Of a DNA stretch of 35,004 nucleotides, positions 18,121-31,845 are shown piece by piece. Below the pieces are notes generated by a model that was given only the letters and a program-made list of their open reading frames with translations, did not search any database and was not told the DNA's origin. The first letter of the stretch is position 1. Every line of letters begins with the position of its first letter. Source of the stretch: Faecalicoccus acidiformans (GTDB lineage Bacteria > Bacillota_I > Bacilli_A > Erysipelotrichales > Erysipelotrichaceae); the NCBI RefSeq assembly GCF_014202635.1, contig NZ_JACHHD010000018.1:1-35004 (forward strand), written 5' to 3'. Position numbers and translations under genes: made by a program.

Positions 18121-19002
18121 ATGAACATAAAAGTAGGGACTCGAGAATCAAAATTAGCTTTGAAACAGACTGAACTTGCGATTCAGGCTTTATCTAAGAT
18201 CTTCCCGGAGCGATCCTTTGAAATCGTCCCCATTCGTGTCAAAGGAGATCAGGATAAAAAGACACCGCTAGTTCAAATGAAACAAACCGGCATCTTTATC
18301 AAAGAAATTGAACTCGCTTTATTAGATCATACAATCGATTTGGCTATTCATTCTTTAAAAGATGTCGGGTCTGTGATGCACCCTGATCTTATGCTGTTGC
18401 AGCATGCCTTATTCGAGGACCCTAGAGATTGCCTGATTTCAAAAGATCATCAAACTCTCATGGAATTGCGCCCAGAAGCAAAGATTGCGACAGGTAGCCT
18501 TCGTCGCCGAGCTTGTATCCATCGGCTTCGGCCAGATATTCAGTTTGTGGATCTAAGAGGAAATATAGAAACGCGTCTGCAAAAATTGAAAGAATCTGAT
18601 TGGGATGGTTTGATTTTGGCCAGTGCAGGGTTGAAGCGTTTGGGACTCGAAGCTCTAATCGATGAGTATCTGGATCCATCTTTTGTGATTCCAGCCTGTG
18701 GCCAGGGAACATTGGCTTTACAGATTCGCAAGGAAGATCAAAGGCAGTATGAGAAATGTTTTTCAGAGACTTCAAGAGCGTTAGAAGTACAGATTGAACG
18801 TGATTTTTTAATGCAGAGTCATGCTGGATGCCATGTCCCGGTGGGATGTTATGCCAAAATCCATGGTCAAACAGTTGTGGTTGATGCCTGTTTTGGAGAG
18901 GATGAATTTTCATGTCGTTTTGTGCATGAGACGTTCTCTTTAGATCATTGGGAACAAATCGGATCACAGCTTCAAAAAAAATTAAAGGAACAAGAATTAT
19001 GA
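18121..19002 (+). CDS. hemC: Porphobilinogen deaminase (hydroxymethylbilane synthase)
   Basis: HemC links four porphobilinogens into hydroxymethylbilane. The 293-aa protein shows VGTRESKLALKQT at the start, HSLKDV, TGSLRRRACI, RGNIETRLQKL and the dipyrromethane-cofactor Cys237 in HAGCHVPVG. ATG 18121 has AGAGGAAC upstream; an earlier in-frame ATG (18067) lies inside the promoter and is rejected. It overlaps the next gene by ATGA. The genes that make porphobilinogen (hemA, hemL, hemB) are not in the window. Confidence 0.95.
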   Translation: MNIKVGTRESKLALKQTELAIQALSKIFPERSFEIVPIRVKGDQDKKTPLVQMKQTGIFIKEIELALLDHTIDLAIHSLKDVGSVMHPDLMLLQHALFEDPRDCLISKDHQTLMELRPEAKIATGSLRRRACIHRLRPDIQFVDLRGNIETRLQKLKESDWDGLILASAGLKRLGLEALIDEYLDPSFVIPACGQGTLALQIRKEDQRQYEKCFSETSRALEVQIERDFLMQSHAGCHVPVGCYAKIHGQTVVVDACFGEDEFSCRFVHETFSLDHWEQIGSQLQKKLKEQEL

Positions 19003-20390
19003 TATGGTTTGTGGGAGCGGGATGTTATCATCCTGATATGTTGACAATAGGAGCCATCAAGTGTTTGAAAATGGCAGACTGTGTTTTATATGATCATTTA
19101 GTGAATCCGGAATTTCTACAATATACTTCCGGCGATTGTGAATGCATCTGTGTAGGAAAGCGTGGTTATCATCCTTCTTTTTTACAGACAGATATTGAAA
19201 AACTGTTGGTAAAAAAAGATAAAGAATATGCCAACGTGGTCCGTCTAAAAGGGGGAGATCCCTTTTTATTTGCCAGGGGAAGCGAAGAAATGCTCTATGT
19301 CTTGGATCATGGATGTGATTGTCAATATGTACCGGGAATCAGCAGCGCTATCGGGGCTTTGGGGTTTGCCGGAATCCCGGTGACCCAAAGACATCTTTCA
19401 ACAGGATTTGTGGTTCATACAATGCATACACAAGATGGAAAAGATCCGCTAGATTATGAACGAGTGGCTAGGGAAAGGAATACTCAGATCTTTTTTATGG
19501 GATCGCATAAAATTGAACGATTGGTGAAAAACTGTCTTGCTCATGGGATGCCGGCCGATACACCGATAGCCTTGGGATCGCACTTGACATATCCTCATCA
19601 AGAAGTTTTAGTATCAAGCCTAGGACAGATTTTGAATCAAGATTTAAAAGAATATACCAGTCCTTTACTGATTGTGATCGGAGATGTAGTTAAAGAGCAG
19701 GAAAGGTTAGCCAATGCGAGTCGTTTACCGCATTTTTCGAAACAGGTTCTATTGTGTTCTATCGATAATACTCCCTGGCCTATTGAGGATTTGACCCTTC
19801 GTTACGGAATTTATCCGAGCATTCGACAAGTTGCAGAAATCAAAACGATTTTTGAAGAGAAGTTTACATTAGAATCTTATTCTACTTTTGTCTTTGTATC
19901 GCGGAATGCGGTCGAATCATTCTTTGAGAATATGGTATTTCATCATCTGGATATCAGAGATCTTTATCAGAAAAAAATCGTTGCGATCGGTTCCAAGACG
20001 AAAGAGGCATTGATTCAAAAGGGAATCTTATGTGATTGTGTTTTTTCTCATTTTCGGTCGTTTGAAAAGGAGTGGACAGATCTGACTTCGGTTTGTGTCA
20101 TAAAAGCAAAAGAAAACGAATATGTCTACCCCTCCTTTTCGTGTTACACCATAGAAGAAACTGATTTTGATCTCCCTGAGGTTTCGTGGGATGCCGTGGC
20201 GGTCACTTGTTCTCGTTCTTTAAAGATCTTAAAAGATCGAGGGTTAGCTCTTAATACGCCGATTGTTTGTTTTGCTCATAAGACATTACAGAAGGGCAAG
20301 GAAATGGGATTTACCAACCTGCACCCGGTACTTTCTTCTAAGGAGGCGTTAGTGCAAGGGATATTGCAGCTTTTTGGAGAAACAGTATGA
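18999..20390 (+). CDS. cobA: Uroporphyrinogen-III C-methyltransferase / uroporphyrinogen-III synthase fusion (CobA-HemD)
   Basis: A 463-aa bifunctional enzyme. Residues 1-~240 are SUMT, making precorrin-2 with two SAM: the N-terminal VGAGCYHPDMLTIGA, VLYDHLV, VRLKGGDPFLFARGSEE and VPGISSAIGALGFAGIPVTQR. Residues ~245-463 are a HemD-type uroporphyrinogen-III synthase, a weakly conserved family recognised by FVFVSRNAVESFF, IGSKTKEAL and VTCSRSL. Together they take hydroxymethylbilane to precorrin-2. The ATG at 18999 overlaps the hemC stop; AAAGGA precedes it. It overlaps the next gene by ATGA. Such fusions are known in Clostridia and relatives. Confidence 0.92.
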   Translation: MIWFVGAGCYHPDMLTIGAIKCLKMADCVLYDHLVNPEFLQYTSGDCECICVGKRGYHPSFLQTDIEKLLVKKDKEYANVVRLKGGDPFLFARGSEEMLYVLDHGCDCQYVPGISSAIGALGFAGIPVTQRHLSTGFVVHTMHTQDGKDPLDYERVARERNTQIFFMGSHKIERLVKNCLAHGMPADTPIALGSHLTYPHQEVLVSSLGQILNQDLKEYTSPLLIVIGDVVKEQERLANASRLPHFSKQVLLCSIDNTPWPIEDLTLRYGIYPSIRQVAEIKTIFEEKFTLESYSTFVFVSRNAVESFFENMVFHHLDIRDLYQKKIVAIGSKTKEALIQKGILCDCVFSHFRSFEKEWTDLTSVCVIKAKENEYVYPSFSCYTIEETDFDLPEVSWDAVAVTCSRSLKILKDRGLALNTPIVCFAHKTLQKGKEMGFTNLHPVLSSKEALVQGILQLFGETV

Positions 20391-21406
20391 GAATTTGTAT
20401 CGATGTTGAATGGAAAGATCATGTAGTCTGTATCCTTGGCGGAGGGAAGGTTGCTTTGCGAAAAGCTAGTCAGTTTTTAAAAGCGGATGCGCATATTTAT
20501 ATTTCGAGCTTGGAATATTTAGATGAGTTTGAAAAGCTTCCTGTCATGAAATGTTCCTATCCACAATTGGTAAAGACATTGGATCAGTGCACTTTGGCCA
20601 TTGCGGCAACCGATGATCCTCGTATGAATCAACAGTTTATTCAAGAGGCCAAAAAGCGAGGGGTTTTAGCCATGGCGGCGCAAAAAGATTTAGAACAAGA
20701 TTGTTTCAGTATGATGGAATCTCGAAACGGCGATTTGGTTCTGGCGTGTCATACAAACGGGGCTTATCCTATCGCTAACAAAGCCATATTAAAGGACTGG
20801 CAAGACCGGCTTCAGGATCTTAGAGTGATTCGGGATCATTTACAAGATCATCGCTATTGCGAAACGATTCTGAATCTGGATCCTGAACACATCTCTTTTT
20901 TGCGATCGCTTTGCGAAAAGTCAAAAGGTATTGTCGTGTTGGTGCATGGCAATCATTCTCAAAAGGCGAAGATACAGATAAAGAATCTTTGTCAACGGAT
21001 CCAGGAAGAGCATCAGTATCCAACGACTTTCTTGTTTATGGCACCTCAATATCGAGATATCTCGATAGAAAACTTTTGTCAGATTTTAAAAGAGTTAAAA
21101 TCGAAGGCCCATTTTGTGGATCTTTTTTGGGGGCAAGGGCGTTATATGCATCAGATCCAAGATGTTTTAGAAATCTATCATTTTATGCATCAATGGATCC
21201 GGATCGATGCGGCTGAATTTGTAGGTTCAAATGAAACTCTGATCCAACATACGCTTCCCAATTCTAGGTCGGATTCATCCGTCGTCGTCAGTATGTTAGA
21301 TTCTCCTTTTTTAAAGAAACAGTATCCAAACAGCCGGTTTGTGGCTTGTCTGGAACAAAAAGAAGTAATAGAAAGGATCGTACATGAAATCCATCCGACT
21401 TTTTAG
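20387..21406 (+). CDS. Precorrin-2 dehydrogenase fused to a sirohydrochlorin chelatase-like domain
   Basis: Residues 1-~150 are the Met8/CysG-N type NAD-dependent dehydrogenase: VCILGGGKVALRKASQFL nucleotide loop, AATDDPRMNQQF and LACHTNGAYPIANKAI. Residues ~185-339 resemble the CbiX/SirB small chelatase family: IVVLVHGNHSQKA matches the strand and metal-binding His start, FLFMAPQYRDI the middle, and VDLFWGQGRYMHQI the segment with the second His. The protein would therefore turn precorrin-2 into siroheme in one chain. The chelatase assignment is inferred from weak motifs; a degenerate, non-catalytic domain is possible because the usual HGSR is HGNH here. It starts 4 nt inside the cobA-hemD gene. 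Confidence 0.82.
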   Translation: MRICIDVEWKDHVVCILGGGKVALRKASQFLKADAHIYISSLEYLDEFEKLPVMKCSYPQLVKTLDQCTLAIAATDDPRMNQQFIQEAKKRGVLAMAAQKDLEQDCFSMMESRNGDLVLACHTNGAYPIANKAILKDWQDRLQDLRVIRDHLQDHRYCETILNLDPEHISFLRSLCEKSKGIVVLVHGNHSQKAKIQIKNLCQRIQEEHQYPTTFLFMAPQYRDISIENFCQILKELKSKAHFVDLFWGQGRYMHQIQDVLEIYHFMHQWIRIDAAEFVGSNETLIQHTLPNSRSDSSVVVSMLDSPFLKKQYPNSRFVACLEQKEVIERIVHEIHPTF

Positions 21407-21932
21407 CTACACAGCTCTTTTTTTAGCGTTGATGATTCTTTCTTCTTATATTCAGATTACCTTGCCGACACCGGTTTATTCCATGCATATCACAATGCAG
21501 TTGTTTGTGAGCATCGTTTGTGGCTTTTGTCTGCCATTGCGTTATGGTCTTCTTTGCATGGGAGTCTATGTTTTGATGGGACTAATGGGGATCCCGGTCT
21601 TTGCCAGCGGTGGAGGAATTCAGTATATCTTGTACCCGACTTTTGGCTTTATTCTTGGTTTTGTCGCATGTACTGGCAGCTGTGCTCTTTTGCGTCAAAG
21701 AAAAAGACCAAGTTCCATGAAAGAATATCTTTTCATCGGAGCTTTTGGTCTTGCGATCTACTATATTCTAGGAAATGTGTATTATTATTTCTCATTTCCA
21801 TTCTTTTTGAATACTCACATCCCTCTTTGGCTTTCACTGTTGAATGCTTTTTTCGTTTCGATCATACCGGATTTGTTGATTATGGTCGCGGCTTGTCGAA
21901 CAGCTAAATCTTTACAGATATTTTTTAAGTAA
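21384..21932 (+). CDS. bioY: BioY family biotin transporter (ECF S-component)
   Basis: A 182-aa membrane protein with about six helices. BioY hallmarks are TLPTPVYSMHITMQLFVSI, PLRYGLLCMGVYVLMGLMGIPVF and GGGIQYILYPTFGFILGF. It binds biotin and works alone or with an EcfAAT module not present here. AAAGGA precedes ATG 21384, and the gene overlaps the end of the siroheme gene by 23 nt, so it is in the same operon although biotin has no direct part in siroheme synthesis. Its 3' end overlaps the convergent reductase by 21 bp. Confidence 0.9.
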   Translation: MKSIRLFSYTALFLALMILSSYIQITLPTPVYSMHITMQLFVSIVCGFCLPLRYGLLCMGVYVLMGLMGIPVFASGGGIQYILYPTFGFILGFVACTGSCALLRQRKRPSSMKEYLFIGAFGLAIYYILGNVYYYFSFPFFLNTHIPLWLSLLNAFFVSIIPDLLIMVAACRTAKSLQIFFK

Positions 21933-23447
21933 CGCTTGCCACTGGTCGGCGTTTTCTTTTTGCCAAATTGCAAATGTGGAATCGGCCTCTGTGATCGTTT
22001 CACCCAGTTCTTTAAAGAAGCTGTTGATATCGGATTCTAAGAGTAAGCCGGATTCTATTCCAAATTGTGTACCTGTCAGACAAGGTTTGCCGTTCAATGA
22101 CATTTTAAAGGCAGAATAAGGTTTCTTATCCACTAATTTTGTGAAACCCTGTAATCCGATGGTTCCAATCTGGTGTGTTCCACAGGAACTAGGACAACCG
22201 GAGATATAGATTCTAGGCAGAACACCTTCTTTAAAATTATATGGACGTAAGAAATCAATCAGTTTTTTTAATACTTCATTTGAATTCCTTAAACCAACTT
22301 GACATGTCTGAGCCCCTATGCAGGAAACGCTGGCTTCAAAGGATGTTCGAGCACCATCCTGTGTATGTGCAACAACAGTTTTCGCTTCGTCGATTGTCAG
22401 GTTCACGATATAGATGTCTTCTTGCGGGGATAAACGCAGTTCTACTGCTTCCATGTCTTGGATCAAATGATTCAGTTCGGCCCATTTTTGAACATCCATA
22501 TTGCCGCAGATCGGATGATATTTTACGGTATAGAGTCCGGGCTGTTTTTGAGCGAGTACACGGTCGGGAAGTTCTGTCGCTATTGGGCCGGTTTTAGTGA
22601 TGCTTTCTTCTTGGATCGTTACATCGTGGTCCAAGTTTTGTTTCGCAAGCTTGACTTTTTCCTGGAATTCCTTTTGAATTTCTTCTTCTGTCAATTCTTG
22701 CTGTATGTAGCGTGATCTGGCTTTCGCACGATTCGTGTAATTTCCGTGTTCCATGAAGAAAAGAACCATTGTGTTGACATAGTAGAGAATATCTTTGGGA
22801 TCAATATGGTCTCCTACTTTTACGCCCATCATTGGATTATTCCCAAGTCCTCCGCAACAATATACATCAAAGGTATGATCTTGATTGGCAATAAATCCCA
22901 GATCTCGAAAGTTCGCATGGGTCTCATTGGCTTGAGAATTTGAGAAAGCGACTTTGAGTTTTCGGGGCAGGGAGTATTTATTGATGATCTTAAGCAGGTA
23001 TTCGCCCGCTGCTTTTGCATAAGGGTATACGTCAAATGGTTCTTCCGGATCTATACCGGATAAAGGAGAACACATGACGTTTCTGGGATAGTCGCCGCCC
23101 CCTCCTCGGGTCACGATGCCAATTTCAAGCCCAGCTTTCATAATGGGAGTCAAGGCATCTGGCTGGACATCGTGCAGTTGCACGGTCTGACATGTAGTAC
23201 AGTGGGTCCGGTGAATATCATATTTTTGACATTGTTCCACGATAAAATTCAATTTTTCTTTTGTGATGCGCCCCTGATTCATGCGCAAGCGAAGCATAAA
23301 TGCTTCACCGCCACGTTGAGCATAGGAGCCAAAACCTCCGCTATAGCCCTTATACTCTTTGACGGATATTTCTTTACGGCAGAATTGTTTTGTCTTTTCT
23401 TCAAATTCTGGTAATTCTTGATAAAGTTCTTGTTGTAGTGATTCCAT
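21912..23447 (-). CDS. Siroheme/[4Fe-4S] nitrite or sulfite reductase (NirA/SirA type)
   Basis: A 511-aa single-subunit reductase of the ferredoxin-nitrite/sulfite class, catalysing six-electron reduction of nitrite to ammonia or sulfite to sulfide. Two homologous halves are visible, with TRGGGGDYPRNVMCSPLSG in the first. The siroheme-bridged cluster ligands are Cys376, Cys382 (CIGAQTC), Cys418 and Cys422 (GCPSSC). GAGGAAAT precedes ATG 23447. Nitrite and sulfite cannot be told apart by eye. It converges on, and overlaps, the operon that makes its siroheme, a strong functional link. No PAPS/ATP sulfurylase or nitrate reductase gene is nearby. Confidence 0.9.
   Translation of the reverse strand: MESLQQELYQELPEFEEKTKQFCRKEISVKEYKGYSGGFGSYAQRGGEAFMLRLRMNQGRITKEKLNFIVEQCQKYDIHRTHCTTCQTVQLHDVQPDALTPIMKAGLEIGIVTRGGGGDYPRNVMCSPLSGIDPEEPFDVYPYAKAAGEYLLKIINKYSLPRKLKVAFSNSQANETHANFRDLGFIANQDHTFDVYCCGGLGNNPMMGVKVGDHIDPKDILYYVNTMVLFFMEHGNYTNRAKARSRYIQQELTEEEIQKEFQEKVKLAKQNLDHDVTIQEESITKTGPIATELPDRVLAQKQPGLYTVKYHPICGNMDVQKWAELNHLIQDMEAVELRLSPQEDIYIVNLTIDEAKTVVAHTQDGARTSFEASVSCIGAQTCQVGLRNSNEVLKKLIDFLRPYNFKEGVLPRIYISGCPSSCGTHQIGTIGLQGFTKLVDKKPYSAFKMSLNGKPCLTGTQFGIESGLLLESDINSFFKELGETITEADSTFAIWQKENADQWQALLKKYL
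21931..21961 (+). terminator. Terminator of the siroheme/bioY operon, inside the opposing gene
   Basis: AACGC (21931-21935) pairs with GCGTT (21949-21953), extended by a further pairing across a small mismatch, then TTCTTTTT. It starts at the bioY stop and lies in the C-terminal codons of the convergent reductase. Confidence 0.55.
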
Positions 23448-31735: not shown

Positions 31736-31741
31736 GAAATC

Positions 31742-31845
31742 GTACTTATACGACTGACGGAACTAGTGGAACAGACCACATGAAGTATAAGAGTGTATAG
31801 CCGACCGTCTGGGCAGAAAGAAGAGCCCGGAGGCCGGCTTTTCTT
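31742..31845 (+). promoter_or_regulatory. ZTP (pfl motif) riboswitch with terminator expression platform
   Basis: P1 is CTTATAC (31745-31751) with GTATAAG (31785-31791); P2 is GTGG (31766-31769) with CCAC (31776-31779); the pseudoknot is GACGG (31756-31760) with CCGTC (31805-31809), next to the hallmark CCGTCTGGGCA. The terminator stem (31799-31839) pairs TCTGGGC with GCCCGGA and AGCCG with CGGCT, followed by TTTTCTT, and consumes the 3' half of the pseudoknot. Ligand (ZTP/ZMP, signalling folate shortage) binding should thus allow read-through into pflB. The family is named after its frequent link to pfl genes. Confidence 0.9.

Follow-up and report, generated by a model that had tools for sequence, protein, structure and literature searches.

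Tetrapyrrole precursor salvagers have been described among cobamide-producing bacteria: in such strains every gene that acts before a given precursor is missing and the later ones are kept, and two Clostridium species with gaps of this kind formed corrinoids only when 5-aminolevulinic acid (ALA) was supplied (available portions of PMC6461909). A class of porphobilinogen (PBG) salvagers is cited in the available part of PMC8123684, and the portions of PMC6461909 considered here name no transporter for the predicted salvagers. Here we analyse a stretch of 35,004 nucleotides from Faecalicoccus acidiformans (assembly GCF_014202635.1, contig NZ_JACHHD010000018.1, positions 1 to 35,004; the window in the following), which carries a siroheme operon ending in a gene of the BioY family. 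The operon probably makes siroheme from imported PBG, with the BioY-type protein as the importer, where both the substrate and the direction of transport are what we infer. The locus consists of the following genes:

18121..19002, plus strand: hemC, hydroxymethylbilane synthase (TIGR00212, 275.7 bits against a cut-off of 164; PF01379 and PF03900 over cut-off)
18999..20390, plus strand: cobA-hemD fusion, uroporphyrinogen-III C-methyltransferase and uroporphyrinogen-III synthase (TIGR01469, 228.4 against 185; HEM4, 48.3 against 27.5)
20387..21406, plus strand: sirC-like gene for a precorrin-2 dehydrogenase with a fused chelatase domain similar to CbiX/SirB (NAD_binding_7, 56.6 against 22.1; CbiX, 18.2 bits, below its cut-off of 22)
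21384..21932, plus strand: bioY, S-component of the energy-coupling factor (ECF) type, BioY family, MH type, predicted PBG importer (PF02632, 97.7 bits against 25; fold, linkage and co-occurrence)
21912..23447, minus strand: siroheme-[4Fe-4S] reductase, probably a ferredoxin-type sulfite reductase (NIR_SIR, 112.9 bits against 27, and two half domains)

The first three genes are joined by overlaps of 4 bases, all on the plus strand; bioY shares 23 bases with the sirC-like fusion upstream and 21 bases with the convergent reductase gene. An earlier note on this DNA had described hemC, the two fusions and the reductase. These genes are present with matches far above chance, the profile scores exceeding the curated cut-offs except for the CbiX half, and HemC, CobA-HemD and the dehydrogenase-chelatase fusion indeed cover all steps from PBG to siroheme, the chelatase half being supported by its fold. 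The neighbour is, as claimed, a convergent siroheme reductase, but it does not overlap the siroheme-synthesis genes: it overlaps the intervening bioY, which the note had missed, so that its reading of the locus as a whole holds in part.

The genome containing the window is a draft of 1.77 Mb in 31 contigs with a completeness of 99.7%. Profile searches of this genome gave no match for hemB or for hemA (GlutR), and a bona fide hemL was not found in it, a weak aminotransferase match reaching 143 bits against a cut-off of 527. HemC is the earliest enzyme of the pathway that the genome has. Since hemA, hemB and a bona fide hemL are absent, siroheme synthesis begins at PBG, and PBG would therefore have to come from outside the cell; the pathway is not self-contained. 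PBG is proposed as the imported compound because of gene content, being the first intermediate that is still usable. An assembly gap as the cause of the missing hemB was considered and is unlikely at the given completeness; it is also opposed by six relatives that have the same operon and no hemB, hemA or hemL over cut-off, four of which (G074, G001, G042 and G091) are 91-99% complete.

The profile searches gave no match for hemE (URO-D) in this genome. CobA is its only corrin methyltransferase; the second TP_methylase is RsmI, and the genome therefore has no cobamide ring pathway. The reductase is the sole NIR_SIR gene in the genome and the only tetrapyrrole consumer detected (Ahb-type heme genes were not searched for). 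The statement that heme-branch genes are missing is thus borne out for hemE, no cobalamin route competing for precorrin-2 was found, and the suggestion that tetrapyrroles are made only for this reductase stands as far as tested. The supply of siroheme, as far as tested, is dedicated to one reductase, but it would begin outside the cell.

The same arrangement recurs in the family. Among 125 genomes of Erysipelotrichaceae, hemC was found over cut-off in 18, NIR_SIR in 32 and hemB in 8. A BioY gene directly follows the siroheme genes in 7 of the 10 genomes with hemC and no hemB, versus none of the 8 loci from genomes with both. Two gene orders are observed: hemC, cobA-hemD, sirC-cbiX and bioY facing sirA (G000, G074, G101, G042, G083), and sirC, a hemC-cobA-hemD gene for one chain and bioY, with sirA divergent (G001, G091). 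All seven genomes with the operon BioY encode a second BioY elsewhere, the two paralogues being split. In G001 and G091 the second copy lies with a biotin carrier, accompanied by either OAD_beta or a biotin ligase; its neighbours in the window genome are neutral (arginase-like, MTHFR). The hemB-containing genomes G043, G058 and G087 have one BioY each, of the other type, and the remaining five have none. As a side observation, single chains of HemC, CobA and HemD with about 750-820 residues occur in several genomes of the family (loci L064, L065, L068, L071, L074 and L080).

The BioY protein of the window is a membrane protein of 182 residues. Its model, with a predicted local distance difference test (pLDDT) of 90.7, superposes on the biotin S-component 4DVE (4dve_A; Z 23.0, root-mean-square deviation 1.6 Å, 174 aligned residues), and the modelled fold is that of a substrate-binding S-component. 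The protein has MH at positions 34-35, while 27 of the 30 other BioYs of the family have P at position 35. In the model, the short strand that carries H35 lies between long helices one and two, which we take to be the region of the loop by which S-components close their binding site; this location would fit a changed ligand but is no proof of one. In a tree of 112 BioYs, a single branch separates the MH type from the others (SH-aLRT, an approximate likelihood-ratio branch support, 86), and no NCBIfam family matched the MH-type BioYs at an E-value of 0.001. Loss of lysine 166 as a mark of the MH type was rejected, as most non-MH relatives in the scan described below also lack this lysine.

The association extends beyond the family. 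The genome_contigs collection was scanned with the seven operon BioY proteins of the family, and the best 80 of 142 loci were used. Retrieval relied partly on motifs (an MH[IF]T[ML]Q-type stretch and PVFASGGG); linkage was not a criterion. A BioY was counted as linked if located within 3.5 kilobases (kb) of hemC or cobA-hemD on the same strand. MH-type BioYs (motif MHxTxQ) are linked in 49 of 61 cases, non-MH BioYs in none of 18. Histidine 35 is found in all 49 linked and in 12 unlinked loci; the other 19 unlinked loci are the 18 non-MH loci and L207, which has a gap at this position. The linked loci come from Pseudobutyrivibrio, Dorea, Hungatella, Sporofaciens, other Lachnospiraceae, Eubacteriales and Erysipelotrichaceae. 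hemB was searched for in the genomes of 50 of the 80 loci, 45 treated as linked (44 that meet the 3.5 kb criterion, plus L149 with hemC about 4.5 kb away) and 5 unlinked, omitting five loci of genomes already tested. Of the 44 genomes in the linked set, 1 has a hemB match over cut-off, and of the 5 others none.

These data bear on the possibility that the BioY is an ordinary biotin importer that lies downstream of the siroheme genes by chance, with PBG entering by an unrelated route. The Pfam BioY score of 97.7 bits and the closest solved fold, a biotin S-component, are what this reading would predict. However, a second BioY is present in all seven family genomes with the operon copy, matches to BioB or BioD are found at none of the 61 MH-type loci versus 11 of the 18 non-MH loci (three examples were checked by Pfam), and the tie to hemC and to the absence of hemB recurs in two families and in several gene orders. 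The window copy itself lies with a hemC operon. We therefore regard an ordinary biotin importer as improbable.

A sample of 299 Lachnospiraceae genomes, not chosen for BioY, gave a similar picture. hemC is over cut-off in 129 of them, 36 without and 93 with hemB. Of the 36 genomes lacking hemB, 7 have a BioY no more than about 4 kb from hemC (6 of the MH type), versus 1 of the 93 genomes with hemB (VT type, G379). A genome-wide search with an MH-type profile covered all 36 hemB-less genomes and every second of the first 87 of the 93 hemB-containing ones (44 genomes). BioYs of the MH branch, scoring at least 199 bits, occur in 22 of 36 versus 0 of 44 genomes, although the line of 199 bits was set after the scores were known; at 225 bits the counts are 20 of 36 versus 0 of 44 (Fisher 2e-9). 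A single branch sets the 22 proteins (17 MH, 3 MN and 2 VT) and the MH type apart from the rest. Without seven genomes already known from the scan (G127, G137, G142, G152, G163, G169 and G171), the branch is present in 15 of 29.

Among the hemB-less Lachnospiraceae that lack the MH branch, many encode a transporter of a different kind. Permeases of the OppB/OppC type are encoded beside hemC and cobA-hemD in 9 of these 14 genomes (loci L214, L221, L222, L224, L226, L229, L234, L235 and L242). The operon of L214 also contains CbiB and a gene for a CobQ/CobB-like amidotransferase, and that of L224 a family 5 solute-binding protein. A mere background of Opp permeases was rejected, as they are found in none of the 93 hemC neighbourhoods of hemB-containing genomes. 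This Opp/Dpp-type importer is a possible second PBG importer. A more distant Opp-type permease occurs at L220, in a genome with the BioY branch. Altogether 31 of the 36 hemB-less Lachnospiraceae have one or the other importer type, and assembly gaps are suggested for two of the remaining five because hemA lies beside hemC.

Shared ancestry was addressed with a HemC tree of 98 genomes, comprising 80 Lachnospiraceae and 18 genomes of the family Erysipelotrichaceae, from which independent pairs were taken on well-supported branches. The best tree requires no fewer than 19 changes in the presence of hemB. Of 12 independent pairs, an average of 6.6 show the MH-branch BioY and hemB changing in opposite directions, and none shows them changing together (median p 0.0156; 0.031 with the strict cut). 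If the Opp-type importer is counted too, an average of 9.1 of the 12 pairs are opposite (p 0.0039). An earlier tree, restricted to the 80 Lachnospiraceae, yielded 5 pairs, too few for significance (median p 0.25).

The repeated co-occurrence also speaks to a second alternative, namely that PBG is made internally by enzymes unrelated to HemA, HemL and HemB, while the BioY carries something else. The searches covered known enzyme families only and the window genome is a draft in 31 contigs, which leaves some room for this explanation. Against it, three consecutive steps would need to be replaced, and repeatedly so; the hemB-less operons gain two unrelated kinds of transporter and not a shared new enzyme; and the two Clostridium species mentioned above, as reported in the available portions of PMC6461909, needed supplied ALA. 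Internal synthesis appears very unlikely. A third alternative accepts an importer for the pathway but assigns it another compound, for example a pyrrole other than PBG, an intermediate further down the tetrapyrrole pathway or a chelated metal. Gene content sets the step of the pathway and not the exact ligand, and the hemB-less genomes include both cobamide-type and siroheme-type organisms. Yet the operons retain hemC and hemD, which would be idle if uroporphyrinogen III or a later compound were imported; hydroxymethylbilane is unstable, which counts against its import; and the association is with the absence of hemB, whose product makes PBG. We consider another imported compound unlikely.

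Several observations, besides the late choice of the 199-bit line, weigh against import of PBG by the BioY-type protein. Three of the 10 hemC-containing genomes of the family without hemB also lack the BioY (G035, G106 and G114), though an assembly gap is likely for G114 because the end of a hemA gene is found where its short hemC contig stops. Twelve MH-type BioYs have no tetrapyrrole genes within 3.5 kb. G130 (Pseudobutyrivibrio sp. ACV-2) has hemB together with a linked MH-type BioY, and G379 has hemB (in two pieces at contig ends) together with the VT-type BioY beside hemC. The MH branch is missing in 14 of the 36 Lachnospiraceae with hemC and without hemB, of which G206, G303 and G375 have neither the BioY branch nor the Opp-type importer, nor a hemA beside hemC that would point to an assembly gap. 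In addition, draft genomes can miss genes.

With respect to the unlinked MH-type BioYs, riboswitch control was considered, but an Rfam search covering 12 of the 20 sources first listed detected no cobalamin riboswitch and only the one T-box described below; the neighbouring genes (prolyl-tRNA synthetase, arginyl-tRNA synthetase, hemerythrin, glycosyl hydrolase) indicate no function. At L168:6210-8558, away from hemC, a T-box precedes a prolyl-tRNA synthetase gene and an MH-type BioY follows directly; at L190 an MH-type BioY follows an arginyl-tRNA synthetase gene.

The simplest account of these patterns is that the loss of three early steps has repeatedly been accompanied by the gain of an importer for the first usable intermediate, by gene content PBG. 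In the proposed import pathway, the BioY-type protein would bind PBG outside the cell, and a shared ECF ATPase/T module, presumed to be present, would together with BioY bring it in. HemC would polymerise PBG to hydroxymethylbilane, HemD would close uroporphyrinogen III, CobA would methylate the latter to precorrin-2, and the SirC half would oxidise precorrin-2. Iron would be inserted by the CbiX-like half or by other chemistry, and siroheme would be passed to the convergent, probably sulfite-reducing enzyme.

Iron insertion by the CbiX-like half is a prediction. A model of the fusion built from five orthologues has a pLDDT of only 73. Its first half matches CysG (Z 14.4) and SirC (Z 11.2), and residues 177-338 match CbiK (Z 10.3, root-mean-square deviation 4.0 over 162 residues) and SirB (Z 9.3), so the modelled fold supports the reading as a dehydrogenase-chelatase. 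The class II chelatases CbiX and SirB have two active-site histidines. H187 is invariant in the 5 orthologues, and the position taken as that of the second histidine, in an alignment by eye, is Y253.

The reductase consists of two ferredoxin-like NIR_SIR half domains with a four-cysteine motif CX5C...CX3C, and has NirA/NiR relatives in the PDB. Its LPRKLK aligns to LPRKWN of plant nitrite reductases, and a lysine at that position presumably marks sulfite reductases; the NirA family equivalog NF007126 scores 165.9 against a cut-off of 523. The enzyme is probably a sulfite reductase, judging from these residues. The co-occurrence of pathway and reductase, from which the earlier note predicted co-loss in relatives, is supported in one direction: 17 of the 18 hemC-containing family genomes have NIR_SIR, the exception G106 having a cobamide gene beside hemC. 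In the other direction, a hemC over cut-off is missing from 15 of the 32 genomes with NIR_SIR, and the reductase is therefore no strict predictor of the pathway.

We further note that G003 (L041), G024 (L052), G028 (L040), G039 (L026) and G060 (L028) encode reductases 46-53% identical to that of the window, with the four-cysteine motif kept and no hemC match (G028 is 65% complete). In the hemC-less genomes G110, G120, G053, G066 and G059, NIR_SIR domains end open frames of about 850-870 residues (L025, L033, L035, L047, L049), a different reductase architecture. G033, which lacks NIR_SIR, has a hemC remnant with an internal stop (L021, L081; C51:9562-9810) that scores 73.6 bits, below cut-off; the remnant is consistent with joint loss. 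Elsewhere in the window, a ZMP/ZTP riboswitch is located at 31740-31821 on the plus strand (RF01750, 60.9 bits, gathering threshold 39).

In the literature covered, which excludes most subscription journals, no title or abstract connects porphobilinogen or hemC with BioY or with any ECF transporter. The importer gene, the extension to a siroheme-only organism and the second importer type appear to be new. Predicted salvagers thereby gain a candidate transporter gene and a sequence signature, and the cultured strains Faecalicoccus pleomorphus DSM 20574 and Faecalitalea cylindroides ATCC 27803 open PBG dependence to direct test. We give even chances to the wider proposal that PBG is a traded gut nutrient, taken up by many siroheme- or cobamide-making Firmicutes that have lost hemA, hemL and hemB through either of two dedicated and mutually unrelated importers, a re-purposed BioY or an Opp/Dpp-type importer, which is frequently encoded within the hemC operon. 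If true, many annotated biotin transporters of gut Firmicutes would be misnamed, PBG would join the list of shared gut cofactors, and both the siroheme-dependent reduction and the cobamide supply of these bacteria would rely on neighbours or the host.

Compared with known systems, the siroheme genes encode the reactions that lead from uroporphyrinogen III to siroheme in the SirA/SirC/SirB and CysG systems. CobA-HemD fusions are already known; the differences are that SirC is here fused to a shortened, divergent CbiX-like domain, and that in G001 and G091 HemC, CobA and HemD form one chain with SirC separate. Like the Dpp/Opp peptide importers of the ATP-binding cassette type, the second importer type has permeases of the OppB/OppC kind and a solute-binding protein of family 5. 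Escherichia coli takes up ALA through Dpp, whereas the importers described here are encoded in hemC operons of hemB-less genomes, where ALA is unusable. With the BioY of Lactococcus lactis (4DVE), the window protein shares the Pfam family, the fold and a single S-component gene without its own ATPase, but the identity is about 19% and the window protein has the MH pair; unlike biotin BioYs, its type is linked to hemC/cobA-hemD and not to biotin genes, and it is the second BioY copy of its genome. Finally, the window genome lacks the upstream genes and keeps the downstream ones like the tetrapyrrole precursor salvagers of Shelton et al. (PMC6461909). That class, in the portions of the source available, is defined for cobamide producers, and the window genome, whose TP_methylases are only CobA and RsmI, stands outside it: it has no corrin ring pathway and works like a salvager for siroheme alone.

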